Below are positions 7,069 through 21,432 of a stretch of DNA of 21,432 bases, piece by piece. The notes under the pieces are model-generated. The model did no database searches, was not told where the DNA came from, and saw nothing but the letters and a program-made list of their open reading frames with translations. Position 1 is the stretch's first letter, and every line of letters starts with the position of its first letter. The stretch is from a virus. The translations under genes and the position numbers were made by a program. The stretch covers positions 1 to 21,432 of the IMG/VR virus record IMGVR_UViG_3300048027_000032; one strand, 5' to 3'.

Positions 7069-9422
7069 TGGGTATGATAAGTTCTGCTATCCCCAACTTG
7101 ATACAAGGTGTATCGCAACAGTCTCCAGCTCTAAGATTATCATCTCAAGCTGAACAACAGGTTAATGCGTTCCCTTCTCTTGTTGAGGGTCTACAAAAGC
7201 GACCACCGCTAGAATACGTGGCTACAATGAGTAACTCCGCAACAACGGGGTCATTCACACATTTAATAAACAGAGATACAACAGAACGTTATTTTATGTT
7301 TATTAATGCTAGTAATCAGATATCTATCTATGACCTAGCTGGTAATCAGAAAACCGTTACTTACCCTAATGGTACTGCTTACCTAAACAGTACAACACCA
7401 GCTACTGATTTTAGAGCTGTTACAGTTGCTGATTATACATTCATTGTTAACTCAAAACAGACAACAGCAATGAGTACACAGCTAACCCCTACATATCCAT
7501 TTACAGGATTAATAGCTGTTAAACAGGGTGATTATAACCAAAGATTTACAGTATATCTTGATGGTAGTATTGCCGCTAACCACGTAACATCTGAGACTGA
7601 CCAAGTAGAAACTCGGACAGATGAAATTGCCACGGCATTAGCTTCAGCAATTAATGGTGTTTCTAACTTTTCAGCACAGGCTGATGGTTCAACAGTTGTT
7701 ATAACCAAGGCAGGTAATGCACCATTCGACCTAGCTACATATGATAGTTTAGGTGACACAGGTTTAAGTCCGACTATAGGTACAGTACAAAGATTTGATG
7801 ACCTACCTTCAAATGCTCCTGATGGTTATATAGCACACGTACAAGGTGATCAAACAAACGACTTTGATGATTACTATGTAAAGTTTGAAAGTGATAACGG
7901 AACACAAAATAAAATAGGTTCTGGTGTATGGATTGAATGGGCTAAACCTAACATAGAATACGAACTAAACGCCGCAACAATGCCACACCTTTTAATAAGA
8001 CAAGCAAATGGGACATTCACATTTGAACAAGCAAATTGGGGCGATAGAGCTGTAGGCGATGAAATATCCATAGCAAACCCATCATTCATAGGACAGAAAA
8101 TTACAGATGTATTCTTCTTTCAGAACCGCTTTGGAGTGTTGGCAGGTGAGAATGTTATTATGTCGAGGACTTCAGATTACTTTGATTTCTTTGCAACGAC
8201 TGCTAGAAGTCTTTTAGATAACGACCCAATAGACGTAGCGGCTAGTCACGTTAAAGTTTCTACATTGAAACACGCTGTGCCTTTTGACCGTAAATTATTA
8301 CTATTCTCTGATCAGACACAGTTCATTCTAAAGGGTGGTGATTTTATTACACCTAAGAATACATCTATAAGTCAAACAACTGAGTATGAAGCTAATACAG
8401 TTACAAGCCCTGTAAGTGCTGGTAGTGTTGTATATTTCCCTGCCAAGCGTGGTGGGTTCACATCGGTTAGAGAATATTATGTTGTTGATGATACAGATAG
8501 ATCAGACGCAACAGATATTACATCTCACGTAGCTAAGTATGTTCCTGACGGTGTTTATAAGTTAGCGGCTAGTACCGCTGAAAATGCATTAATTATGATG
8601 TCTTCTTTAGCTACAGATACAATATTCTTATATAAGTATCATTGGGCTGGGCGTGAGAAAATGCAATCGTCTTGGTCTAAATATACATTTGATAATAGTG
8701 AAGTATTAAATGCTGAATTTATAGAAAGCACATTATATGTTGTTTTAAATAAATCAGGTAAAACTCTACTAATGCAAATACATTTTGATGCTGGTCGAAG
8801 TGATACAGCTCAAGATTATGTAACTAGGCTAGATTATAGAGTTTCAAACCTAGAGGTTGGTAAGGCATACAATAGTGCAACCAATCAAACAACAATAACA
8901 ACACCATATTCTTTAACAAATCCAGTTGTAGTAACTAGAGGTACAAATCAAGGTACTGTGTTAACTAATATGAGCGCGTCAGGTACAACAATTATTGTAT
9001 CAGGTAATCACACATCAACAGAATTTTATGTAGGTGAACGTTACACAATGACTTATGAGTTCTCTGAGCCTACGCTTAAAGAACCTACAGCATCTGGCGG
9101 ACGTGTTGCGATTACTGGTGGACGACTGCAGATCAAACATTGGCTACTAAGATATCAAGATAGTGGTGATTTTAAGGTCAGCGTTATACAAAAACAAAAC
9201 TCACAAGCACAAGAATACATCTTTACAGGTCGTATTATTGGTGGTGGTTCTAACTTACTTGGCTCTACAGCATTAGATAGTGGAGACTTTAGGTTTCCAG
9301 TTATGTCTAAAGCTGAACGAATACGAGTATTAATAGAGAGTGATAGCCACCTACCCTGCCAATTCTTATCGGCAGAATGGGAAGGCAATATGCACCTCAG
9401 AAGTAGAAGAGTAAATGGATAA
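7068..9422 (+). CDS. Tail tubular protein B (T7 gp12-like nozzle)
   Basis: 784 residues (T7 gp12: 794). It forms the hexameric nozzle of the short tail. The N-terminus IPNLIQGVSQQSPALRL, then EGLQKRPPLEYV (about 39-50), is diagnostic. Other family features are the central FFQNRFGVLAGENVIMSRTSDYFDFF (about 349-374, broken here by family variation) and VVYFPAKRGGFTSVREYYV (about 457-475). The C-terminal CQFLSAEWEGNMHLRSRRV is also characteristic. AGGA (7057-7060) precedes the ATG. Its last eight bases overlap the next gene (ATGGATAA). Confidence 0.95.
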   Translation: MGMISSAIPNLIQGVSQQSPALRLSSQAEQQVNAFPSLVEGLQKRPPLEYVATMSNSATTGSFTHLINRDTTERYFMFINASNQISIYDLAGNQKTVTYPNGTAYLNSTTPATDFRAVTVADYTFIVNSKQTTAMSTQLTPTYPFTGLIAVKQGDYNQRFTVYLDGSIAANHVTSETDQVETRTDEIATALASAINGVSNFSAQADGSTVVITKAGNAPFDLATYDSLGDTGLSPTIGTVQRFDDLPSNAPDGYIAHVQGDQTNDFDDYYVKFESDNGTQNKIGSGVWIEWAKPNIEYELNAATMPHLLIRQANGTFTFEQANWGDRAVGDEISIANPSFIGQKITDVFFFQNRFGVLAGENVIMSRTSDYFDFFATTARSLLDNDPIDVAASHVKVSTLKHAVPFDRKLLLFSDQTQFILKGGDFITPKNTSISQTTEYEANTVTSPVSAGSVVYFPAKRGGFTSVREYYVVDDTDRSDATDITSHVAKYVPDGVYKLAASTAENALIMMSSLATDTIFLYKYHWAGREKMQSSWSKYTFDNSEVLNAEFIESTLYVVLNKSGKTLLMQIHFDAGRSDTAQDYVTRLDYRVSNLEVGKAYNSATNQTTITTPYSLTNPVVVTRGTNQGTVLTNMSASGTTIIVSGNHTSTEFYVGERYTMTYEFSEPTLKEPTASGGRVAITGGRLQIKHWLLRYQDSGDFKVSVIQKQNSQAQEYIFTGRIIGGGSNLLGSTALDSGDFRFPVMSKAERIRVLIESDSHLPCQFLSAEWEGNMHLRSRRVNG

Positions 9423-9888
9423 TAAACTACTAACACCAACAACGGTGGAAGATGTAGATTTTATCGCTCCTAAATTAAGACAAGCAGATTATGAAGAATG
9501 TAAAGCGGCAACAGGTAATGAGCCTCTAGGCGTTCTTCATAATGGCCTTGATATAGGAGACATAACACTAACCCTACGTTCACCTAATGGTGAGCGTGTG
9601 GGTCTGTGTGGTGTGGTAAAATCTGATTTAGAAAACGCAGGGGTCGTCTGGATGTGCGCTACAGATGACATCTATCAATACCAGATGACTTTCTTGCGAA
9701 ACAGTAAAGAAGCTTTGGCCTACTTAGGTCAAGACTATTCATTACTATATAACTGTGTAGATGCCCGAAACACTGTCCATATGAAATGGCTTGATTGGAT
9801 GGGCTTTACGTTCATCAACAAGCACGAAAACTACGGGGCTGAAAGCAGACCCTTTTACGAATTTGTAAGGATTAATAAAAATGTGTGA
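9415..9888 (+). CDS. Internal virion protein, GNAT-like (T7 gp13-like)
   Basis: 157 residues (T7 gp13: 138). In T7, gp13 is needed for virion morphogenesis, and such proteins share a GNAT acetyltransferase-like fold. The pattern here matches: an N-terminal part (VEDVDFIAPKLRQADYEECK) and LGVLHNGLDIGDITLTL, then a core strand ERVGLCGVV, VVWMCATDD, and a C-terminal NTVHMKWLDWMGFTFINKHE, which is the usual GNAT end and matches the T7 gp13 ending. Whether it binds acetyl-CoA is unclear. No classic Q/RxxGxG/A loop is evident, which suggests a structural role. It overlaps both neighbours by 8 nt. Confidence 0.82.
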   Translation: MDNKLLTPTTVEDVDFIAPKLRQADYEECKAATGNEPLGVLHNGLDIGDITLTLRSPNGERVGLCGVVKSDLENAGVVWMCATDDIYQYQMTFLRNSKEALAYLGQDYSLLYNCVDARNTVHMKWLDWMGFTFINKHENYGAESRPFYEFVRINKNV

Positions 9889-10393
9889 CCCAGCAACCAT
9901 AATGACTGCCCTAAAAGTAGGTGGTGCAGTAATGGAACAAAAAGCAAAAGCAGACCAAGCGGCGGCAGTCGCTAAAGCCTCTAAAGACGCTTACTTTATA
10001 AAGAGCAAGCAATCGAACTTACGCCTATTACAAGAACAAAATAAAGCATCTGAGATAAAACAAGATGCTGATTTAAAAGCCATGAAAGCACAAGGGACAG
10101 CGTTAGCTGTAGCTGGTGGTTCTGGGGTTCAAGGTAGAAACGTTGACCAGCTTATAAATGATTTTGAACGTTCTGAAGGCATAATGACAGCGAGAGTTGA
10201 TAGTCAACTTAAAGGTATGCAAGCTCAGAACGAAATGGATAAACTCGCTTTCCAATCTGAAGCACAAAACAGAATAAACTCAAACCCACCACCAAGCTTT
10301 GCTGAAAGTCTATTTGCAGTCGCAGAACCTTTAGCAAACTATAAGTTGGATATGGATGAGAAAAACGCTCAACGAACATTCGATATAGGATAG
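9881..10393 (+). CDS. Internal virion protein B (T7 gp14-like)
   Basis: 170 residues (T7 gp14: 196). In T7 this core protein is ejected first and forms the outer-membrane pore for DNA entry. The start MCDPATIMTALKVGGAVMEQ is typical. A long Ala/Lys/Gln-rich helical region (about 20-75) is followed by LAVAGGSGVQGRNVDQLIND (about 74-93), FERSEGIMTARVDSQL and a C-terminal helix. The position between gp13- and gp15-like genes supports the call more than sequence alone would. AAGGA (9867-9871) precedes the ATG, and the first 8 nt overlap the previous gene. The next gene follows after 9 nt with AGGAG. Confidence 0.85.
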   Translation: MCDPATIMTALKVGGAVMEQKAKADQAAAVAKASKDAYFIKSKQSNLRLLQEQNKASEIKQDADLKAMKAQGTALAVAGGSGVQGRNVDQLINDFERSEGIMTARVDSQLKGMQAQNEMDKLAFQSEAQNRINSNPPPSFAESLFAVAEPLANYKLDMDEKNAQRTFDIG

Positions 10394-10402
10394 GAGAATA
10401 AT

Positions 10403-12043
10403 ATGGCACGACCAGTAGTGGGTAATCCATTCGAAAACCAAATACCAAATACATCTCCTACTGCTAGAGTTGTAGAGACATATGTACAACCAGTTAAGAA
10501 TAACGACTTCGCTAAGTTAACAGAAATGTTAAACCGTTTAGACCCAAAGGTTAAACGTAACGAAGAGAATAATCAAAAACGTGCAGATGAAACAGCGTAC
10601 AAAGAAGGTACGAGATTATATCAAGAAAACAGAATTGCTATGGGCGAAGCTGTTAAAGAAGGTCTAATACCAGAAGGTGCAAGTCCTTATTTAAGAAAAG
10701 GTTATCGTGAGTCACAGATGAACACGTTAGCCATGAGATATACAGGTGAACTAGAGGCCGCATTAGCGTCTGAAAACCTACATCATAACGACGACCCTAA
10801 TGTAGTTAATAAATTTATTAGTGATTTCCAAGCTGATTTCGTAGAAGCAAATGGTATGTCACAATTCTCTGACGCAGAAATGGCAACTAACTTTGGTACG
10901 TCAGCGGCTAAAGCAGAAGAATTATTTAGACAATCTTGGCAGAATAAACATATCGAATGGCAGAAAGAAGAGAACTACAAACAACTTGGTAACGAGGTAT
11001 ATGAAGCTGTCTCTACTATGCTTACTGATGATATGGATGAAGTATCCTATATGACAAACCGTGGGATGTTTGGTGTGTGGTTAGAAGAAACAGCCGCCAA
11101 ATATTCAGTAAACGGTGCAAACAACGCTAAAGTATTAGACACAATAATTGATGCTGTTGGTATGCACGTACAAGAAACTGGTGATTTAGAAGTCTTAGAG
11201 GTTTTTAAAGACACTAAATTTGGTACAGATTTTGTAGGTAATTCTTTATATTATAAGAAAAAAGAAAACGCGATTATAACTAAATCTATACAGATAGAGA
11301 ACGCTAGGATTGCTAGAGAAGAAAAACTATTAGATAAAGAAAATGAAGTAATTCGTGCAAACTCCGCACAATTCCTTATTGATTATATTAACGACCCAAC
11401 ACCAGAAAATGAAACAATTTTAAGAGGTCAAATATTTAAATTAAGGATGTCGTCTGAAGAGAAAAACACTTCATTAGCAATATCTTACAACAATACTTTA
11501 AAGTCAATCGAGAAAGCTCAACAACTTGGTGGACAAAATAAAACTGCAGAAAGCGAACTAAATTTAGATGCGGCTTTAAGTAAAGCTAAAACCTATGAAG
11601 AAGCTTCTGATATTATTTTAAGATACGCAGAAGACGGTAAGGTTACTGTAGAAGGTGTTAACGCCAAACTAAATATCTGGAAATCTCAATATAACCCTGA
11701 GTTAGACGATAAACTTAATTTAGATTTTGTAGGTCAATCTGTAGAATCTGATTTGTTAAAAGACATACAGCAAATGTTTAAAGGTAACATGGAAGACTTT
11801 GATGACGCTAGACATCAGAGAGCAATCCAAGTTGGCTCAGAATACAGGCAATTCGTGAGAATAGGTGTTGAAAAGTTCATAAAAGATAATGGCGGTAGAT
11901 TTCCTAGTACCATTGAGAGGGACGAAATCACAATGAACGTATTTAGAGTATTAGTAGATAAATACGCAAATGTTTTAGAGAAATTAAGCGATGCAGTTAT
12001 GACAACTGGAACTAGCAATATTCCAGAAAACCTCAATAACTAA
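10403..12043 (+). CDS. Internal virion protein C (T7 gp15-like)
   Basis: 546 residues, shorter than T7 gp15 (747). In T7, gp15 forms the periplasmic conduit with gp16 during ejection. The sequence is almost wholly helical and charged with no membrane segment, as expected. Notable stretches are a start with ARPVVGNPFENQIPNTSP, NNQKRADETAYKEGTRLYQ (about 55-73), SEEKNTSLAISYNNTLKSIE (about 350-370) and RHQRAIQVGSEYRQFVRIGV (about 470-489). The call rests on order (after gp14-like, before gp16-like), size class and composition. AGGAG (10392-10396) gives a good start. The next gene begins 15 nt after the stop. Confidence 0.82.
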   Translation: MARPVVGNPFENQIPNTSPTARVVETYVQPVKNNDFAKLTEMLNRLDPKVKRNEENNQKRADETAYKEGTRLYQENRIAMGEAVKEGLIPEGASPYLRKGYRESQMNTLAMRYTGELEAALASENLHHNDDPNVVNKFISDFQADFVEANGMSQFSDAEMATNFGTSAAKAEELFRQSWQNKHIEWQKEENYKQLGNEVYEAVSTMLTDDMDEVSYMTNRGMFGVWLEETAAKYSVNGANNAKVLDTIIDAVGMHVQETGDLEVLEVFKDTKFGTDFVGNSLYYKKKENAIITKSIQIENARIAREEKLLDKENEVIRANSAQFLIDYINDPTPENETILRGQIFKLRMSSEEKNTSLAISYNNTLKSIEKAQQLGGQNKTAESELNLDAALSKAKTYEEASDIILRYAEDGKVTVEGVNAKLNIWKSQYNPELDDKLNLDFVGQSVESDLLKDIQQMFKGNMEDFDDARHQRAIQVGSEYRQFVRIGVEKFIKDNGGRFPSTIERDEITMNVFRVLVDKYANVLEKLSDAVMTTGTSNIPENLNN

Positions 12044-12058
12044 TAGAAAGATTATAAA

Positions 12059-15000
12059 ATGGAAGAAGAAGAATTCAAAGACGCACAACAGCGTCTTAAA
12101 GGCGGCTTGCTGTCTTCTACAGACTTCATATCCAAATACGGTCAGGATAAATATAATTCGACTATTGGTGTTATTGAGGCAGTACAGGAGACTAATGTTG
12201 TAGAAGCCGAACCAGAAGGTACTGGCTTCTTTGGTACTCTTGCCGACATGGGCGAAGGTATCTTAAACGGTATCGAAGGAGCTATCAACGAAACAGCACA
12301 GACAGTTAATAGTGCTGGCGAGTGGGTGGAAGATAAGCTTGGTACAGGTCGTTTAGTCTGGGAAGACAATGACGGTGATGGTAAAGCTGATAGTATGATA
12401 CCTACCTACTGGGATAGGGAAAAGGTTGTAGCTAACAAAGATAAGCTAGATCAAGACATTATCACTAAAGCTGTAGAAAACTTAAACATTATTGATGACG
12501 AACGTGAAACCATGATTGGTGGTTTTACTGAAGGTATCTCACAGTTTGTTACAGGATTTGTTGCACTTGGTGGAGCAAAGACTTTTGTTGGTGCAATGCT
12601 TAAAGGTGGTATCGTTGATGCTACTGTGTTTGACCCATATGAAGCTAACATATCATCTCTTATTGAAGATAGCTTTTTAGCGAACCCAATAACTGAAGCA
12701 CTTGAAATGGATGTAGACGCACCCGAATGGGAGAACCGCCTACGAAATTCTATTGAAGGTGGTGTTACTGGACTAGCTTTAGAAGGTATTATTAAAGGTG
12801 TTAAGTTCTATATGCTTGGCGGTAAAGCTAAAGCAGAGATAAAGAAACTAGGTAAAGTATCTGATGAAACAGCGGCTAAACTAGATGAAACACACGCAGA
12901 GTTAAATGAAATAGAAACTCAAAGCGGTAAACCTGATAAGCTTGTAGCTAATGATGATGGTACACTTGAAGCACCTGATGGTACTAAATTTAAGCCTAAT
13001 GAAGCTGGTGATGATCTAGTAGAAGTCCCTAAGACAGAAGCTGAGATTAAAGCTGAAAACGAATTGAATGCTAAAACAGCGGAAGCGTTAGCGTCAGACG
13101 ACCCTGCAAAAGCAATGAGTGAGCTAGATATCCCTGCAAATGCTAAAGCAGATGTAGAGATAAAGACATCTGATGAAGCAAAGAGTGAGATACTACAGGC
13201 ACAAGTAGAGCCTAAAGTAATCAAGCCAAAAGCTAAAGTTCCTTTAATTAAGAAAGAAGACTTTGAAAAAGCTTTATCAAGAGCATTTGAGAGTGGTGAC
13301 ACTGAATTAGTATCTATTGAAGATGGTGCATTCTTTAACTCAAGAAATATGAACCAGCCGATTGAGGGTGCTAAGATTCTTGAAGAATTCACAACTGTAC
13401 TGAGAGAGTCTAAAACATTCAAAAAGATGAAGCTAGATAAGCCTCAAACACTTGATGATGTACATAGAGGCGCAATTAAATATATCGCAGATGCTTCTGG
13501 CACAAACCCTAACAACATCATTAAAGAACTAAATATCACTGAAACAATCACAAGAGATTTATCTGAGAAGATAGTTGCAGGTAAATTTGCTATACAATCT
13601 ATGAGTGACGAAGTTGGTAGACTTTCAAAAGAACTGACTGAAAAGAAAGAACTTGGCACACTTACAGAAGTCGATGAAAATAAGTTTGTAGATATGATGC
13701 AAGCAACTATGGAAGTAGTAGCAAACGTTAAGTCACTACAAACATCAGCGGCTAGAGCAACAAGCGCAGGTAGAGTTGTCACTGACAATTCTCTTGGTAC
13801 TGACTTTGTAAATAGAGTTGATATGTTTGGTGGTAGTGAGAAGGTAAGAAAACTAGCTCAAGAATTATCTAAAGTTACTAACAGTAAACAGCGTACCAAG
13901 ACTATATTTAAAGCGGCAGAACGTAAGTGGTTACGTGTTCTAAATGAATATTGGATTAACTCTATTTTAAGTGGTCCGACTACACATATGCTCAATATGA
14001 CTTCAAACAGTGTTAACCTTATGATGAGACCTGCAGAACGCGCAGTAGGTGCGGTTTTAAGTGGAAACTTAAAAGAAGCTAAGACCGCAATGAAGATGTA
14101 TACATATTATATATCTAACTTTTCTGATGCCATACAATTAGCGGCTAGGTCTGGCTACAACATGAAGCCTATACTAGATGAAAGTGTTAAGGTTGATAAC
14201 GCAATGCAAGGTACTAACCCCCGTGCAATATCATCTGAATACCTTGGAGTTAAGAGTGGGACGTTAGACATACTAGGCAAAGCGTTAACTATACCATCTC
14301 GTATGTTAGGAGCTGAAGATGAATTCTTTAAGCAACTTTCTTACAGGTCACATCTACAAGCTAAGATAGCTACTGACGCGGCTTACATGGATATCAAAGA
14401 TATTCAAAAAGCTGGATTTAATACACGACGTGAGTGGATTGAAGATACGTTTGAAAAAGCATTTGTCACAAAGATAGATGCTGAAGAAGCTTGGTCGGAT
14501 GCTGTTATAACTCGCAGAGTTGTAGACGACCCTAAAGTTAAAGAGAAGTTCATTGAGAATGCTATTGGTTCTGCTAACAAGAATAGTAGTTATTCATCAG
14601 CGGCGTTGCTAGAAGCTAGACAGGCTACATTTACACAGCCACTAGAAAAAGGAACATTCTCTGGAAACTTCCAAGGGTTTGTAAATAAACACCCGTTAAT
14701 GAGACAGTTAACACCGTTCATTCAAACACCAATGAATATCTTAAACCAAGCTATAGATAGAACACCAGCGTTTAATCTATTAAGAAAGCAGTACAAAGAT
14801 GAATGGAATAACGCTGACCCATCTATAAGAGCGCAAGCTAGAGGTAAGATGGCTATGGGTATTGCTATTTATGGTACTCTATCGGCTCTCGCCCTTAATA
14901 ATAAGCTATCTGGAGGTGGTCCGACTGACCCAAAACTAGCTAAATTATGGCGTGAATCAAAGGATTGGCAACCATACTCAATTAACTTTGGTACAGATGA

Positions 15001-15904
15001 AAAGCCTTACTGGGTTAGTTATGCTCGATTAGACCCTTGGACTACATCGTTTGGTATCGTAGCCGATATCAATGAAATGATTGTAGCAGGTCAAATGGCA
15101 GATAACGATGCAACAGACCTAATGGCTATGTTTGTAGCGGCGGCAGGTAATAACATCGTATCTAAAACATACCTACAAGGTATCTCTGATACAGTAAGCT
15201 TAATGAATTCTAAAGATAGTCCTTGGGAAATTGAGAACTTCTTTAAGCAACGAATGGCATCATTACTACCGTTATCTAGTCTTACAAACCAGACAGGTAA
15301 CATGAATGATGAATATTTACGTGACACTCGTAGCTACTTAGATAAGCTTAGAAAGCAATCAGGAATTGGTCGTGATGGTCTTACTATCAAATACAGTTGG
15401 ATAGACGGACAGCCTTTAGACACACCTGATAGACTTAAAGGTTTCGTACATATTACCAAAAAAGGTCTTGAAGAGAAAGATGTTGGCACAGCTTTAATTA
15501 ACAAAGAAATGCGTAAATTAGGTTATAGATTTCAAGGTGCAACCAGAAAAGTAAAAGGCGTAGAGCTTACTGCAGATCAGGTAGAACGTTGGAATCAATT
15601 AATGGGTTCAATGAAATCTGGCTCAAGAACTTTAAATGAAAAACTACAAAGAGTTATCAAAAGCAAAAAATACAATAAAGACGGTGAAGATTACGGTCTA
15701 GTATCAGCTTCAGAAAGTCACAGGGTAGCTATGCTTAATAGAGAAATTAAGCGTTACAGGGATAAAGCGTTAAGACAGTTAATGAAAGAATATCCAGTTA
15801 TACGTGAGCAAACAAAGGCTTACAGGAAGTTCCTAAGAAACAGTCAGCGTAATAAACCTGCAGTAAAACCAGAGACAATTCTGGATAATCTAAGACTCGA
15901 TTAA
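12059..15904 (+). CDS. Internal virion protein D, large ejection protein (T7 gp16-like)
   Basis: 1281 residues (T7 gp16: 1318), the largest gene here. It should line the inner-membrane part of the ejection channel. The N-terminus holds a calcium-loop-like DNDGDGKAD (residues 103-111) and a Gly-rich hydrophobic stretch (about 152-190). A long acidic, Ala/Lys/Glu-rich helical region (about 255-400) follows. The conserved core is near SILSGPTTHMLNMTSN (about 640-655), and a hydrophobic segment MGIAIYGTLSALAL lies near 931-945. After it come YWVSYARLDPWTTSFGIVAD (about 983-1002) and a very basic C-terminus. T7 gp16 carries a lytic transglycosylase domain at its N-terminus; I see none here. The Shine-Dalgarno is weak (AGAAAG). 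Confidence 0.85.
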   Translation: MEEEEFKDAQQRLKGGLLSSTDFISKYGQDKYNSTIGVIEAVQETNVVEAEPEGTGFFGTLADMGEGILNGIEGAINETAQTVNSAGEWVEDKLGTGRLVWEDNDGDGKADSMIPTYWDREKVVANKDKLDQDIITKAVENLNIIDDERETMIGGFTEGISQFVTGFVALGGAKTFVGAMLKGGIVDATVFDPYEANISSLIEDSFLANPITEALEMDVDAPEWENRLRNSIEGGVTGLALEGIIKGVKFYMLGGKAKAEIKKLGKVSDETAAKLDETHAELNEIETQSGKPDKLVANDDGTLEAPDGTKFKPNEAGDDLVEVPKTEAEIKAENELNAKTAEALASDDPAKAMSELDIPANAKADVEIKTSDEAKSEILQAQVEPKVIKPKAKVPLIKKEDFEKALSRAFESGDTELVSIEDGAFFNSRNMNQPIEGAKILEEFTTVLRESKTFKKMKLDKPQTLDDVHRGAIKYIADASGTNPNNIIKELNITETITRDLSEKIVAGKFAIQSMSDEVGRLSKELTEKKELGTLTEVDENKFVDMMQATMEVVANVKSLQTSAARATSAGRVVTDNSLGTDFVNRVDMFGGSEKVRKLAQELSKVTNSKQRTKTIFKAAERKWLRVLNEYWINSILSGPTTHMLNMTSNSVNLMMRPAERAVGAVLSGNLKEAKTAMKMYTYYISNFSDAIQLAARSGYNMKPILDESVKVDNAMQGTNPRAISSEYLGVKSGTLDILGKALTIPSRMLGAEDEFFKQLSYRSHLQAKIATDAAYMDIKDIQKAGFNTRREWIEDTFEKAFVTKIDAEEAWSDAVITRRVVDDPKVKEKFIENAIGSANKNSSYSSAALLEARQATFTQPLEKGTFSGNFQGFVNKHPLMRQLTPFIQTPMNILNQAIDRTPAFNLLRKQYKDEWNNADPSIRAQARGKMAMGIAIYGTLSALALNNKLSGGGPTDPKLAKLWRESKDWQPYSINFGTDEKPYWVSYARLDPWTTSFGIVADINEMIVAGQMADNDATDLMAMFVAAAGNNIVSKTYLQGISDTVSLMNSKDSPWEIENFFKQRMASLLPLSSLTNQTGNMNDEYLRDTRSYLDKLRKQSGIGRDGLTIKYSWIDGQPLDTPDRLKGFVHITKKGLEEKDVGTALINKEMRKLGYRFQGATRKVKGVELTADQVERWNQLMGSMKSGSRTLNEKLQRVIKSKKYNKDGEDYGLVSASESHRVAMLNREIKRYRDKALRQLMKEYPVIREQTKAYRKFLRNSQRNKPAVKPETILDNLRLD

Positions 15905-15914
15905 CAACTACAAC

Positions 15915-15940
15915 GGCCTCGCTTCGGCGAGGTCTTATTA
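15915..15940 (+). terminator. UUCG-loop terminator between ejection and fibre genes
   Basis: GGCCTCGC (15915-15922) pairs with GCGAGGTC (15927-15934) around a TTCG tetraloop. This gives eight pairs, one of them G-U, followed by TTATTA. The stem is very stable but the T tract is imperfect, so it may terminate only partly. It lies 11 nt after the gp16-like stop and ahead of the fibre Shine-Dalgarno. Confidence 0.75.
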
Positions 15941-15957
15941 CAATATAGGAGATATGG

Positions 15958-18900
15958 ATGGCATCCATTGTAAACTATGTCGCTGACGGTGCGACGAACC
16001 AGTTTCAAATACCGTTCACATACATAAATCAAGCAGACGTAGTTGTTACCGTAAATGGGACAGCTCCAACTTTTACATTTTTAAACTCAACGACAATTAA
16101 TATAGCCGCAACACCAGCGTCAGGTGCTAAAGTTATTATTAGTCGTGCTACACCTTTAAATCCGTTAGTGGATTTTGCAGATGGCTCAACATTATTTGAG
16201 GCTGATCTGGATTTAGCACACCAACAAAACAGACTAATAGCTGAAGAAAGTAGAGATAGAGCTGATAGTGCTATTGCTACAATCAACGCTAATATAGATA
16301 ATATTGATACAGTTGCAGAGATTGCAGGTAACGTAAATATAGTTGCAGGTAATACAACTAATGTTAACTCAGTCGCGGCAAACATGGCTGAAGTATTAAC
16401 TGCAGATGATAACGCCGCTACAGCTACAACTAAAGCTAATGAAGCGTCTGCTTCTGCATCAACAGCATCAGCTCAAGCAACTATTTCAACTACAAAAGCT
16501 GGTGAAAGTTCTACAAGTGCCGCAGAAGCTTTAGCGTCTAAAAATGCCGCATCTGCATCTGAAAGCGCAAGTTCTACTTCAGAAACTAATGCCGCTAATA
16601 GTGCTACATCATCATCAAATAGTGCAACGGCAAGTGCATCAAGTGCTTCATCAGCTAACTCTAGTCAAACCGTAGCGACAACTAAAGCCGCTGAAGCTGT
16701 TGTATCAGCCAATAATAGCGCAGTAAGTGCAACAAATAGTGCGAACTCAGCTACTACAGCGACAACTAAAGCCAATGAAGCGAGTGCTTCACAAGTTGCG
16801 GCCTCAAACTCAGAAACAAATGCGTTAAGCTCAAAGAATGCGGCGGCATCTTCAGCAACCAATGCGGCAACTTCAGAAACAAATAGTGCTTCAAGTGCTA
16901 CAGCTTCTGCTAATTCATCCGCAACTGCTACAACAAAAGCAAACGAAGCGGCGGCTTCAGCTACATCTTCTGCAAACTCAGCTACTGCAAGTGCAAACTC
17001 AGCAACAGCGGCGGCGGCAAGTGCGGCCTCAATAACGGGCGCAGAAACAAATTCAGCTAACTCTGCAACAGCGGCGGCTAACTCTGCAACAGCGGCATCA
17101 GCTTCTAAGGATGCGGCTTTAGCGGCTTTAGATAACTTTGACGATAGATACTTAGGTGTAAAGTCTAGCAATCCATCAGTAGACAATGACGGAAACGCAC
17201 TGGTTGCTGGTAGCCTCTACTTTAACAGCACAGACGACACTATGAAAGTTTACGAGGGTTCTACTTGGGTAGCGGCTTATGCTTCGTTAAGTGGTGCTGT
17301 GTTACAGACTGGCAGTACAATGTCAGGCGACTTGTCATTTGGTGACAACGACAAAGCCATATTCGGTGCTGGGTCTGACCTACAGATTTACCATGATGGG
17401 TCACATAGTTATATTGATGATGTAACAGGTAGTGGAGAAGGGTCATTATATATTAAGGCAGACCAATTTTATATAAATAATAGCAATTATAATTACTTGC
17501 AAACTAATTCTAGTGGTGACATCCGTTTTAAATATCAGAGCGCAACCAAACTAGCCACAACATCAACAGGCATTGACGTTACTGGTGCTAACAATTCTGT
17601 TACCACAAAGATAGAAAACACAACTGGTGCAAATTACCTACAAATTACAAACGGAACTGCAAACGGATACTTCGGCACAACTGGCTCAAACACCGTCTCT
17701 ATGATGAGTATCGGTACACACCCACTTACGTTTGGTGTTGATGGCGGTCAGGAAAAAATGAGAATAGATTCGTCAGGTAACTTGTTGGTGGGTAAGACTG
17801 TTGAAAACACTACGACTGTTGGTATCCAAGCCCGTGCTGATGGATTATTTACTGCGGTGAAGGCTAGTGCTGAAAGCGCAATCTTTGGTCGAAACACTAA
17901 TGATGGTGACATAGCTAAGTTCCGCAAAGACGGCTCAACTGTAGGTAGTATTGGTGCTAATGGCTCATACCCTTATATTGGTTCTCACGGCACATCTGGT
18001 AAAGGTATTAAAATTACCGATGCTCTACTCCCAGCGACAAACTCTGGTGCTTTTAACGATGCGAATGTAAATTTAGGTGCATCAAATGTACGTTGGAAAG
18101 ACCTCTACCTCAGTGGTTTTACCCGTTATAACACAGAAGTTTACGTTGGTGATGGGGCTTCTATATCTGGCAGTTATGCAGCTAATGACTTGTTGTTACA
18201 CACAGACAACAATCCTATTGTGTTTAGACCTAACGGCACAGAAGCCGTGCGCATAGACGCATCAGGTAATGTTGGTATTGGGACGAGTTCACCTAACGCT
18301 ATTGCTGATTTGCACGTTGCAGACAATTCCGATGCACGTATCTGGTTAGACGCAACCTCAGCAGACACGATGGAACTTTACTCAGGCACTGGCGTTGGGA
18401 TGTTTAACAGGTCAAACAGCCACTTAATACTAGGCACTAACAACACAGAACGTATGCGCATTGACTCGTCAGGCAATGTTGGTATTGGGGCGAGTTCTCC
18501 TAGCAACCAATTACACCTACAAAAGTCTGCCGATACTGGAATAGTAATAGAAAATTCTGCCTCGTCTAATGCAACCCTCAGTTTATTGGCAACAGGTGCA
18601 GGTCGAGTACGAAGCAGTGGAACTTTAATTTTCGATACAGGCGGTGCTACAGAACGTATGCGCATAGACTCATCAGGCAAAGTTGGTATTGGAGATAGCA
18701 CCCCAACTGCTAGATTAGACATTGGAGGTATGGCGGCAGGTGAAGTTGGTTTACAAATTACAAGCCCACGTAATGATGCTATATCAACAGGGCTTGCTTA
18801 TATAAATGTAACAGACAGCGTTGCTCCATTTAGTGCGTTGACTATTGACCATAATGGTACTGGAAAACTTATTGAGTTTCGTGATGGTGGTACACTATCA

Positions 18901-19380
18901 GGTGTTATTTTTAAGAAAGCCGACCAATTATGTATTGGCGTACATGATACTAACATTAGGTTCTTAGATTCATCTGACTCAATTATACCTGTGCATAGTG
19001 GTGGTGATGGTAGAAATGACTCTATAAGTTTGGGTACAAATGGTGCTAGATTTAAGAATGGCTACTTCTCAGGAAGTCTATACGGCGATGGCTCTAACCT
19101 AACAGGTGTTGGCGGTAGTACAACCCGTGGCGATGTTGGTACTTATACTGTAGGTGCTACGTCTAATAGTAACAGCACAGCTATAGCGGCTGGAGCTACT
19201 GCGGCAGGTAATACGCTTGTAACAGATTACTATAGCTTTTATCACCAACGACCATTAGCTACAGATTTTAATGGTTCAACAAGTTGTGGTCTTTCAGGTA
19301 CATGGAGAAACATGGGCGGTACGGCTACAGGTGCGCAGTTTGGTGTAAAATCGCCAACACTTTGGGTCAGAATATCTTAA
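15958..19380 (+). CDS. Tail fibre protein with T7 gp17-like N-terminus
   Basis: 1140 residues, about twice T7 gp17 (553). Residues 1-130 match the T7-type attachment domain (NYVADGATNQFQIPFTYIN, RATPLNPLVDFADGSTLFEA, EADLDLAHQQNRLIAEE). Residues about 150-395 are an Ala/Ser/Thr/Asn-rich shaft with recurrent TTKANEAS units at exact multiples of seven residues, pointing to a trimeric coiled coil. Residues about 440-1050 are beta-rich with four MRIDSSGNVGIG-type repeats. The C-terminus (SGTWRNMG, then SPTLWVRIS) is the likely receptor-binding tip. No peptidase S74 chaperone motif is seen; a chaperone gene follows instead. AGGAG (15947-15951) lies 6 nt before the ATG. Codon and motif use changes at about 17.76 kb, suggesting a transferred distal part. 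Confidence 0.92.
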   Translation: MASIVNYVADGATNQFQIPFTYINQADVVVTVNGTAPTFTFLNSTTINIAATPASGAKVIISRATPLNPLVDFADGSTLFEADLDLAHQQNRLIAEESRDRADSAIATINANIDNIDTVAEIAGNVNIVAGNTTNVNSVAANMAEVLTADDNAATATTKANEASASASTASAQATISTTKAGESSTSAAEALASKNAASASESASSTSETNAANSATSSSNSATASASSASSANSSQTVATTKAAEAVVSANNSAVSATNSANSATTATTKANEASASQVAASNSETNALSSKNAAASSATNAATSETNSASSATASANSSATATTKANEAAASATSSANSATASANSATAAAASAASITGAETNSANSATAAANSATAASASKDAALAALDNFDDRYLGVKSSNPSVDNDGNALVAGSLYFNSTDDTMKVYEGSTWVAAYASLSGAVLQTGSTMSGDLSFGDNDKAIFGAGSDLQIYHDGSHSYIDDVTGSGEGSLYIKADQFYINNSNYNYLQTNSSGDIRFKYQSATKLATTSTGIDVTGANNSVTTKIENTTGANYLQITNGTANGYFGTTGSNTVSMMSIGTHPLTFGVDGGQEKMRIDSSGNLLVGKTVENTTTVGIQARADGLFTAVKASAESAIFGRNTNDGDIAKFRKDGSTVGSIGANGSYPYIGSHGTSGKGIKITDALLPATNSGAFNDANVNLGASNVRWKDLYLSGFTRYNTEVYVGDGASISGSYAANDLLLHTDNNPIVFRPNGTEAVRIDASGNVGIGTSSPNAIADLHVADNSDARIWLDATSADTMELYSGTGVGMFNRSNSHLILGTNNTERMRIDSSGNVGIGASSPSNQLHLQKSADTGIVIENSASSNATLSLLATGAGRVRSSGTLIFDTGGATERMRIDSSGKVGIGDSTPTARLDIGGMAAGEVGLQITSPRNDAISTGLAYINVTDSVAPFSALTIDHNGTGKLIEFRDGGTLSGVIFKKADQLCIGVHDTNIRFLDSSDSIIPVHSGGDGRNDSISLGTNGARFKNGYFSGSLYGDGSNLTGVGGSTTRGDVGTYTVGATSNSNSTAIAAGATAAGNTLVTDYYSFYHQRPLATDFNGSTSCGLSGTWRNMGGTATGAQFGVKSPTLWVRIS
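16423..16953 (+). repeat. TTKANEAS shaft repeats in the tail fibre, heptad-spaced
   Basis: Five units of the form [AST]-T-T-K-A-x-E occur with their Lys at fibre residues 159, 180, 243, 271 and 327. The gaps are 21, 63, 28 and 56, all multiples of seven. This is the register of a long coiled coil. The DNA of the copies differs at synonymous sites, so they are old duplications or under protein-level constraint. Confidence 0.8.
17758..18705 (+). repeat. Four RIDSSGN-VGIG repeats in the distal tail fibre
   Basis: Copies start at 17758 (MRIDSSGNLLVG), 18247 (VRIDASGNVGIGTSSP), 18454 (MRIDSSGNVGIGASSP) and 18658 (MRIDSSGKVGIGDSTP), at fibre residues 601, 764, 833 and 901. Each is preceded by a related strand (PLTF, PIVF, HLIL, TLIF). 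Such repeats occur widely in phage fibres and can guide recombination between them. The last two spacings are 69 and 68 residues. Confidence 0.85.
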
Positions 19381-19395
19381 CAATAGGAGGCGTTT

Positions 19396-19815
19396 ATGCC
19401 AACAATAACAATAACAGAAGTGCGTAACGCACAATCGCTTAACACAGAAAATACGGCATTTAATGTAGAGATTAACCATCCAGAATATGATTGGATACCT
19501 TACACACTAAGCCCTGATGATACAGATATGACTGTAGACAACAGCGTATTGCTTGAACTTATAGGCTCAGATTTCGAGGCTTATGTAGCACCTACTCAAG
19601 AAGAACTAGATGCAGAACTAGCGGCAGGTCTTAGGGAGCAACGTAACCAAAAATTAGTAATGGAAGTAGACCCTATAGCTGGTAACGCTTTACGTTGGGC
19701 GGCACTTACATCCGCAGATAGAGAAGCGTGGGCAGATTATAGAGAAGCATTATTAAATATTACAGATCAAGTAGGATTTCCTCACGATGTAATATGGCCA
19801 AACAAACCAGCATAA
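19396..19815 (+). CDS. Tail fibre assembly chaperone-like protein
   Basis: 139 residues. The C-terminal half (RNQKLVMEVDPIAGNALRW, AWADYREALLNITDQVGFPH, then WPNKP) is the pattern of the phage tail assembly chaperone family (PF16778 as I recall it): an R-N/D-x-L start, a W..YR..L core and a final P...WP.KP. The N-terminal half (EVRNAQSLNTENTAFNVEIN, then YDWIPYTLSPDDTD) is variable and probably fits the cognate fibre. The gene directly follows the fibre, where such chaperones usually lie, with a near-perfect AGGAGG (19385-19390) 5 nt before the ATG. It may help trimerise the fibre or remain in the virion. Confidence 0.85.
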   Translation: MPTITITEVRNAQSLNTENTAFNVEINHPEYDWIPYTLSPDDTDMTVDNSVLLELIGSDFEAYVAPTQEELDAELAAGLREQRNQKLVMEVDPIAGNALRWAALTSADREAWADYREALLNITDQVGFPHDVIWPNKPA

Positions 19816-19825
19816 GGATAAAAAA

Positions 19826-20128
19826 ATGCCAAACACACACATATGGTCTATCGCTGACCTAGAGCGAAACACATCTAATGATGGAGTAACAATAGCACAC
19901 TGGCGTTGCGAAAGCACAGATGAAACAAACACTGTATCAGCATATGGAACTACAAGTCACACGCCTAATCCATCGGACTCTGACTTTATTCCTTACGCTG
20001 ATTTAACAGAAACAAAAGTATTAGAATGGGTACACGAACAAGTAAACAAAGCTGATACTGAAGCGGCAAATGATGCTAAGATAGCTGAACTTGCAAACCC
20101 AACATCCACAACTGGGATGCCTTGGTAA
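19826..20128 (+). CDS. Conserved phage tail-region protein (100 aa, function unknown)
   Basis: The protein begins HIWSIADLERNTSNDGVTIA and continues HWRCESTDE. It has YADLTETKVLEWVHEQVNK near residues 57-75 and ends NPTSTTGMPW. This WxIxxLER...DGxVxxxHWR...LTExxVxxWV...NP...G.PW pattern recurs in small proteins near fibre genes of marine and other phages. I know of no established function. It is soluble and acidic. AGGA (19815-19818) precedes the ATG, overlapping the end of the chaperone gene. A minor tail component or fibre-associated protein is the likeliest role given its position. Confidence 0.7.
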   Translation: MPNTHIWSIADLERNTSNDGVTIAHWRCESTDETNTVSAYGTTSHTPNPSDSDFIPYADLTETKVLEWVHEQVNKADTEAANDAKIAELANPTSTTGMPW

Positions 20129-20154
20129 TTTTAACTTAAATAAAGGAGATCAAA

Positions 20155-20376
20155 ATGGCTGAAGATAAAAAGGTTATTACGATTGATAATAAAGAATACA
20201 CTGAAGACCAACTAACTGACAACCAGAAGGTAATCATAAACCACCTTCACAGTTTAAGTCAGAAGATTGCTTCTGCTGAGTTTAACCTAGACCAACTCAA
20301 GGTAGGCAAGGAAGCATTTGTAACCATGCTAAAAACAGAAATGGATGCACCCACCGAAGAGGTGGCGGCTGAATAA
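20155..20376 (+). CDS. Small coiled-coil phage protein (73 aa)
   Basis: The start ITIDNKEYTEDQLTDNQKVI is followed by a single long amphipathic helix (about residues 24-62) and an acidic tail ending EEVAAE. The IDxKEY...L..NQK.xxxHL layout resembles a small phage family (DUF6447-like, by memory). It has no membrane segment. AAGGAG (20143-20148) is a strong ribosome site 6 nt before the ATG. It sits between tail accessory and lysis genes; its role is unknown. Confidence 0.68.
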   Translation: MAEDKKVITIDNKEYTEDQLTDNQKVIINHLHSLSQKIASAEFNLDQLKVGKEAFVTMLKTEMDAPTEEVAAE

Positions 20377-20392
20377 ATCAAGGAGATAAGTA

Positions 20393-20659
20393 ATGACGCA
20401 AGAAGGTTGGCACTTATCAAAGAGTGTACCAGCAACACTTCTATTAGGGCTTATTACACAAGCGGCGGCGATTGTATGGACGGTATCGATGATGATGTCC
20501 GACATAGACCGCAATACACAATCAATTAGCTCAGTAACTATGAGACTAGGCGAAGTAGAAGATAACGTCCACAGTCAAGCAATAGCAACAGCTAGGATTG
20601 ACGAGAACATTAAAGCAATTCGTAATGCTGTCGAGAAGATGGCAGATAGGAATAACTAA
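20393..20659 (+). CDS. Single-pass membrane protein with coiled-coil tail (lysis-cassette candidate)
   Basis: 88 residues. MTQEGWHLSKSVPA leads into one transmembrane helix (LLLGLITQAAAIVWTVSMMM, about 16-35). A charged helical tail follows (SDIDRNTQSISSVTMRLGEV, ARIDENIKAIRNAVEKMA) with coiled-coil character. Similar small proteins starting with a Trp and a Lys ahead of the helix are common next to phage holins. It lies 1 nt before the holin. It could be a second holin, an antiholin or an inner-membrane spanin-like subunit; I cannot choose among these. I saw no lipobox-bearing partner ORF. AAGGAG (20380-20385) supports the start. Confidence 0.72.
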   Translation: MTQEGWHLSKSVPATLLLGLITQAAAIVWTVSMMMSDIDRNTQSISSVTMRLGEVEDNVHSQAIATARIDENIKAIRNAVEKMADRNN

Positions 20660-20660
20660 C

Positions 20661-21053
20661 ATGAAACTAGACCCTCTCGGCGGTATCGTCGAAGGTCTTG
20701 CTTCTGGTTTAGATGAATTATTTACAAGTGATGAAGAGCGTGAGGCCGCCAAGTTAAAGTTAATGACTTTGATGCAACAGCCTCACATTCTCCAAGCGGC
20801 GGCAAATATTGAGGGTGCAAAACATCGTTCAGTGTTTGTCGCTGGTTGGCGACCAGCTATCGGCTGGATAGCGGCGTGTGGCCTAGCTTATGAATTTTTA
20901 ATCTTACCATTCGCAAGCCTAATAAACGCATATGCAGAATTACCTGCAGAACTACCACATCTACAAAGCGAACAACTTATGAGCCTTGTCATGGCCTTAC
21001 TAGGACTTGGTGGCATGAGAAGCTTTGAGAAATATAAAGGAGTGTCCAAGTGA
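20661..21053 (+). CDS. Holin, 3TM gene-transfer-agent family
   Basis: 130 residues. A charged N-terminal half (DEEREAAKLKLMTLMQQPHI) leads to the family hallmark AGWRPAIGW (residues 61-69). Next is a hydrophobic region (about 66-90) and a second membrane segment LMSLVMALLGLGGMRSFEKY (about 107-125). This matches the 3TM holin family named from alphaproteobacterial gene transfer agents. It would permeabilise the inner membrane to time lysis. The ATG at 20661 is preferred over an in-frame upstream start at 20598, which would overlap the previous gene by 62 nt. Order holin, small terminase, large terminase equals T7 17.5-18-19. Its stop overlaps the next GTG start. Confidence 0.9.
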   Translation: MKLDPLGGIVEGLASGLDELFTSDEEREAAKLKLMTLMQQPHILQAAANIEGAKHRSVFVAGWRPAIGWIAACGLAYEFLILPFASLINAYAELPAELPHLQSEQLMSLVMALLGLGGMRSFEKYKGVSK

Positions 21054-21283
21054 CTGAGAAACAACTCTTAGAACTACTACACAAAACTTTAGCAGAGAAC
21101 TTACTAGCACGTATACAAGACCCTGATGCAAAATCAGCAGACCTTAACGTTGCCCGTCAGTTCCTAAAAGATAACCATATAGATGCACTTCCAGCGGACG
21201 GTAGCCCACTAGCAGACCTAGTTAAGACACTACCAGACTTTAACGATGAAGATGCAGATTTATCAGAAATGCGACCTAATTAA
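21050..21283 (+). CDS. terS: Terminase small subunit (T7 gp18-like), GTG start
   Basis: 77 residues (T7 gp18: 89). It recognises phage DNA for packaging together with the large subunit. TEKQLLELLHKTLAENLLAR is followed by the typical SADLNVARQFLKDNHIDALP (about 29-48) and an acidic C-terminus. It begins with GTG at 21050, overlapping the holin stop by 4 nt (GTGA). AAAGGAG (21036-21042) lies 7 nt upstream. The position between holin and large terminase confirms the call. Confidence 0.88.
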   Translation: MTEKQLLELLHKTLAENLLARIQDPDAKSADLNVARQFLKDNHIDALPADGSPLADLVKTLPDFNDEDADLSEMRPN

Positions 21284-21286
21284 TAT

Positions 21287-21432
21287 ATGTTTACATCCAC
21301 AACCTCGTTGGGTGTTCCTGTAAAACAAGACCCTTTAAGTGACTTTAGGAAATTCTTGTTTGTTTGTTGGCAACACCTCAACCTTCCCGACCCTACCCCA
21401 GTTCAATATGATATAGCTAAACACATACAACA
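21287..21432 (+). CDS. terL: Terminase large subunit, N-terminal fragment (T7 gp19-like)
   Basis: The ORF runs open off the window end with 48 full codons visible. DFRKFLFVCWQHLNLPDPTP and then QYDIAKHIQ align well with the T7 gp19 N-terminus (DFVAFLFVLWKALNLPVPT, then Q.DMAK). The ATPase (Walker A) and nuclease domains would lie beyond the window. It starts 3 nt after the small-subunit stop. No good Shine-Dalgarno is visible, so translation may be coupled to terS. There is no room for T7-like 18.5/18.7 spanin genes between the two. Confidence 0.88.
   Translation, partial: MFTSTTSLGVPVKQDPLSDFRKFLFVCWQHLNLPDPTPVQYDIAKHIQ

Follow-up and report, generated by a model that had tools for sequence, protein, structure and literature searches.

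The tail fibre gene of the phage described here raises the question of whether its distal part was acquired from a phage whose hosts had been different ones. A reading of the sequence alone had proposed that positions 17758-19022 represent a recent import which escaped the avoidance of GANTC and GCWGC sites prevailing elsewhere. The window, i.e., the whole stretch of DNA analysed, is a contig entered as a virus record of 21.4 kb and belongs to a marine T7-like (Autographiviridae) phage. It is close to the Roseobacter phages CRP-114, CRP-227 and CRP-361, with approximately 70-75% DNA identity in the structural genes and 80.6-82.2% identity of the capsid protein. The fibre gene is placed after the large internal virion protein, in the same gene order as in the CRP phages, and encodes a T7-like fibre in which the T7 tail-fibre N-terminal domain (residues 3-108, PF03906, E=1.8e-23) is followed by a long Ala/Ser/Thr-rich stretch and then by the distal part. 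A structure prediction for residues 590-1140 (19 sequences) reached a mean pLDDT of 54 and was set aside. The genes and larger units concerned are the following.

15958-19380, plus strand: tail fibre gene, 1140 residues (open reading frame; Pfam PF03906)
15958-17303, plus strand: proximal fibre, lineage-stable, common to the T7-like relatives L013 and L014 up to exactly 17303
17303-20380, plus strand: putative exchange cassette that comprises the distal fibre, the tail-assembly chaperone and a pair of small genes; L013, L014, L016 and L017 have it replaced in its entirety
19396-19815, plus strand: tail-assembly chaperone (PF16778, E=2.1e-10)
19826-20128, plus strand: DUF7936 protein, 86% identical at the nucleotide level in the siphovirus-like contig L025
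20155-20376, plus strand: gene for a small protein (phrog_21153) that closes the cassette

The relatives used for comparison are metagenome contigs (IMG/VR), and the closest of them differ in which distal fibre they carry. Throughout the fibre, L008 and L009 are 99.98-100% identical to the window. L011 is 99.9% identical over 7101-18246 and 19066-21432 and approximately 50% identical between these stretches, L012 is 99.9% identical from 18097 onward and differs before, and L015 has a mosaic structure over 18246-18926. Likewise, L016 is 97.5% identical to the window in its core with the whole cassette replaced, and a different cassette is also found in L013 and L014, which stand at 88-92%; the replacement in L013, L014 and L016 spans approximately 17303 (or 16897) to 20380-20408. 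The same alternative cassette, 100% identical over 5 kb, occurs in L016 and L017, which come from separate samples. Both of these match the proximal fibre to 16897 and again over 17101-17306, and the N-terminus is 65-66% identical at the amino acid level in CRP-227 and CRP-361. Near-identical genomes with different distal fibres are represented here by L011 and L016 and, judged from the contigs, alleles have been replaced between such genomes. The segment replaced in L011 is the following.

18246-19066, plus strand: swapped module, window allele and L011 allele approximately 50% identical, in genomes 99.9% identical outside

The alternative modules also occur in phages of another type. Over 970 bp, the L011 module is exactly identical to the 57-kb contig G008, both having been recovered from one metagenome. 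The coat protein of G008 is 87.7% identical to that of CRP-2, a phage of the HMO-2011 type, and 90.6% identical to that of roseophage CRP-603. The latter is listed as HMO-2011 type (PMC9038755). The window itself shares three exact stretches with G008 and a longer segment with L090, an 80-kb contig related to CRP-1, CRP-2 and CRP-9.

18097-18246, plus strand: 150-bp exact match to G008 with its left edge at RWKDLYLSG, where L012 crosses over
19066-19179, plus strand: FKNGYFSGSLYGDGSNLTG region, 114 bp exactly identical to G008, right crossover of L011
19354-19506: 153 bp exact match to G008, reaching the first part of the chaperone gene
17918-18485, plus strand: segment shared with L090, 97.5% identical, running from FRKDGSTVGSIG on the left into RIDSSG box 3

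In addition, L151 is exactly identical to the window over 303 bp, and the stretch 17901-18110 is matched at 96% by L021 and at 88% by L025, whose siphovirus-like assignment was made solely from its open reading frames. With G008 and L090, the same module is thus present in an unrelated phage type, and the contig comparison establishes exact or near-exact sharing of modules with it. The nearest isolates of the module-sharing HMO-2011-type contigs infect Rhodobacteraceae strains from one FZCC set, to which the hosts of the T7-like relatives also belong. As a separate observation, a region is doubled in IMGVR_UViG_3300046167_000032 (G001), the 80-kb contig with L090: the copies, near 7.3 kb and 62.7 kb and hence about 55 kb apart, are 94.8% alike and differ in their fibre genes, the open reading frames being 1362 and 1602 residues long. 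This 80-kb L090/G001 contig probably consists of two related genomes joined in assembly.

The edges of the exchanged segments were mapped near 17303, 17918, 18097, 18246-18270, 18461-18473, 19066 and 20380; at 17758, where the sequence-only reading had set its boundary, none of the relatives breaks. The motifs at the edges are FRKDGSTVGSIG, RWKDLYLSG, GTEA(V/M)RID(A/S)SGN, ERMRIDSSG and FKNGYFSGSLYGDGSNLTG, and the following conserved boxes were located.

17309-17420, plus strand: conserved DNA box (GDLSFGDNDKAIFGAGSDLQIYHDGS; GDLSFGDNDKAIFGAGSDLQIYHDG), at least 75% match in up to approximately 115 other marine contigs
17761-17781, plus strand: RIDSSGN box 1, carrying the first distal GANTC
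18246-18270, plus strand: RIDASGN box 2, in which L011 and L015 have their left crossovers
18457-18477, plus strand: RIDSSGN box 3, carrying the second distal GANTC, right edge of the L090-shared segment
18661-18681, plus strand: RIDSSGK box 4, carrying the third distal GANTC

The left crossovers of L011 and L015 as well as the right edge of L090 lie inside boxes of the RIDSSGN type, and L151 departs from the window sequence just past box 2, from approximately 18295. Edges favour positions of high DNA matching across contigs (permutation P=0.032), with only three of the seven lying in strong boxes, i.e., DNA matched by 40-100 other contigs. Recombination guided by these boxes is suggestive, not proven. 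The contigs matching the box at 17309-17420 belong to several phage types, and its DNA is more conserved than the surroundings.

Site avoidance in the whole window is strong when measured against synonymous-codon shuffling, with 17 GANTC vs 51 expected, one GCWGC vs 64, 13 GATC vs 62 and no CCGG vs 13. The earlier reading had placed its sites correctly: six GANTC at 17767, 18463, 18667, 18967, 18976 and 19018, three of them inside RIDSSG(N/K) boxes, none of either motif in the proximal fibre as it was then delimited (15958-17757), and a single GCWGC in the window (GCAGC within GCAGCT, Ala-Ala).

18178-18182, plus strand: only GCWGC site of the window; L090 differs by one base and is without this site

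In the distal fibre, GANTC occurs at expectation (6 vs 6.7), whereas it is missing from the proximal part, where 3.5 sites are expected. The clustering is supported by a scan statistic (P=0.023) and by the comparison of cassette and core (P=0.014 to 0.034), observed vs expected numbers being 10/43 in the core, 7/8.5 in the cassette and 3/4.5, 2/2.8 and 4/4.1 in the alternative modules. The lone GCWGC had been taken as a further escape, but with 1.8 expected in the segment and 3.4 in the distal part this count is still low and uninformative. Nor is the escape a general one, as GATC is absent from the distal part (0 vs 3-4.6 expected). The GANTC cluster is modest evidence, a weak trace of exchange. 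Where GCWGC is nearly absent (the window, L013, L014, L016 and L017), GCSGC is over-used threefold and CCGG is missing.

Comparison across isolates relates avoidance to the phage lineage. On the single host strain FZCC0023, the T7-like phages CRP-114, CRP-125, CRP-113 and CRP-171 contain GANTC at 0.11-0.37 of expectation, whereas CRP-1 and CRP-9 reach 0.63 and 0.83; avoidance therefore follows the phage lineage, and a GANTC-tolerant module needs no different host. The HMO-2011-type contigs G008 and G001 show ratios of 0.73-0.75. GCWGC avoidance is confined to the clade of the window and some unrelated contigs and holds in other cassettes of this clade (0 vs approximately 9 expected). Since the related isolates CRP-114, CRP-227 and CRP-361 are without it, it appears to be clade-specific, as if directed against one restriction system. 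Avoidance patterns shift fast between neighbouring lineages: L018 and L019 (T7-like relative) contain no GATC (0 vs approximately 33 expected in the L018 core) at normal GCWGC. The FZCC0023 phages CRP-125, CRP-113, CRP-171, CRP-1 and CRP-9 (L005, L006, L007, L223 and L224 in our set) contain almost no CCGG (0-1 sites vs 36-78 expected), and the motif is normal in CRP-114 from the same host (106 vs 105 expected). A literature search on GANTC avoidance in phages gave nothing specific.

If 17758-19022 had been imported recently and in one step from a phage growing on another host, as escaped GANTC and GCWGC sites and codon use were taken to show, this would agree with the GANTC frequency of the distal part and with the different closest relatives of the two fibre halves. 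The latter result had been named as a test beforehand and came out in favour of exchange, but the compositional break demanded at 17.6-17.8 kb is seen neither in GC nor in codon fit, a mild codon shift starting already at approximately 17.1-17.3 kb. Likewise, the reported change in codon choice is not borne out, as no significant difference between the distal segment and the rest is seen for Arg and Gly codon use (P=0.55 and 0.30), for CGC (P=0.27) or for GGC and GGG together (P=0.10); of the four CGC codons in the distal part, three lie within RIDSSGN/RIDASGN boxes, and Arg occurs only six times in the proximal fibre. The loss of all avoidances together with shifted codon use, as would mark an import from a different host, is not observed, given that GATC is still avoided. 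At least six edges other than 17758 point to several nested events, so that the exchange of modules stands and its description as one import does not. The different host history fares no better, as the module-sharing phages resemble isolates growing on roseobacters and GANTC avoidance varies with phage lineage on one strain; altogether, this scenario is very improbable. The motifs might even carry no import signal at all, the cluster reflecting a repeated Asp-Ser-rich motif and chance, which would be compatible with the exchange itself. Each of the six distal GANTC sites falls in frame on an Asp-Ser codon pair (GAY-TCN), half of them within boxes, and without the four RIDSSGN/RIDASGN boxes the difference between cassette and core falls to P=0.16. 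Nevertheless, Asp-Ser pairs are coded with TCN in seven of nine cases in 17303-20380 vs one of 18 in the core (Fisher P=0.0003), and the exchange is evident independently of the motifs. The absence of any motif signal is a serious possibility, if not the favoured one.

The swaps could also be chimeras, assembled from co-occurring phages that have repeat-like fibre stretches in common. G008 and L011 stem from one metagenome and are exactly identical over 150 bp at the left junction, which an assembler could in principle cross, and the contig L010 ends at 18246. Such an artefact is nevertheless unlikely, because L008 and L009, which come from other samples, carry the window allele unchanged, the alternative cassette of L016 and L017 recurs in two samples, and further junctions from other samples are present in L012, L015, L090, L151 and L021. 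Moreover, L011 has approximately 60 bp of its own bases before the right junction which match neither parent. Programmed variation by an invertible segment or a diversity-generating retroelement, rather than exchange between phages, would likewise place alternative alleles in otherwise near-identical genomes. Rather than adenine point changes, however, the alleles are whole blocks of approximately 50% identity that also occur in other types of phage, and the L011 module sequence has no second place in the window on either strand; this mechanism is most unlikely here.

Very probably, then, the distal fibre (residues approximately 449-1140) and the chaperone form a cassette of sub-gene modules which are shared, through recombination, with HMO-2011-type roseophages of the same kind of host, as far as contig comparison can tell. 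Two phages would co-infect one cell, and recombination would join modules in frame at short conserved stretches, candidates being RWKDLYLSG, RIDSSGN-VGIG and FKxGYFSGSLYGDGSNLTG, by presumably homology-guided crossover. In this way, the putative receptor-binding tip would be swapped, and the virion-anchoring N-terminus and the remaining genome would stay unchanged; a change of receptor is the presumed benefit. GANTC would be commoner in the cassette because the lineages supplying the modules do not avoid it strongly and because Asp-Ser within the RIDSSGN box itself is frequently written GAY-TCN.

Modular tail-fibre mosaics are known from P2/Mu/T4-type phages. These resemble the present case in the constant N-terminal anchor, the variable tip, swaps across unrelated phages and crossover at conserved stretches; they differ in the protein family, and the shared stretches are here RIDSSGN and similar motifs, which are repeated and occur widely among contigs of marine phages. 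A host-recognition module of tail fibre and chaperone is common across families in the Alteromonas phages A5, V22 and P24 (PMC10579305). There too, a fibre and its cognate chaperone are common to morphologically different marine phages of one host genus, whereas here the sharing is below gene level, exact identity extends over as much as 970 bp, and genomes that are 99.9% identical carry alternative alleles. The Roseobacter Autographiviridae CRP-114, CRP-227 and CRP-361 (PMC11092137) are alike in genome type and gene order; their distal fibre is unrelated or approximately 35% identical, they lack the GCWGC avoidance, and the paper on these phages does not mention tail fibre or recombination. 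The exchange of fibre modules is thus already known, and the sub-gene scale and exact identity make this locus a clear instance, not a new kind.

More tentatively, and with the balance somewhat against it, the short boxes (RIDSSGN, GDLSFGDNDKAIFGAGSDLQIYHDG and others), similar across many marine phage types, might serve as common joints, at which unrelated phages of one water mass would recombine receptor-binding modules below gene size out of a shared pool. The findings also carry a warning that the local escape from motif avoidance is a signal of phage lineage and not necessarily of a different host. They provide a case, open to direct testing, in which receptor-binding modules have passed between two ocean-abundant phage families, apparently very recently, with exchange points that can be read to the base.
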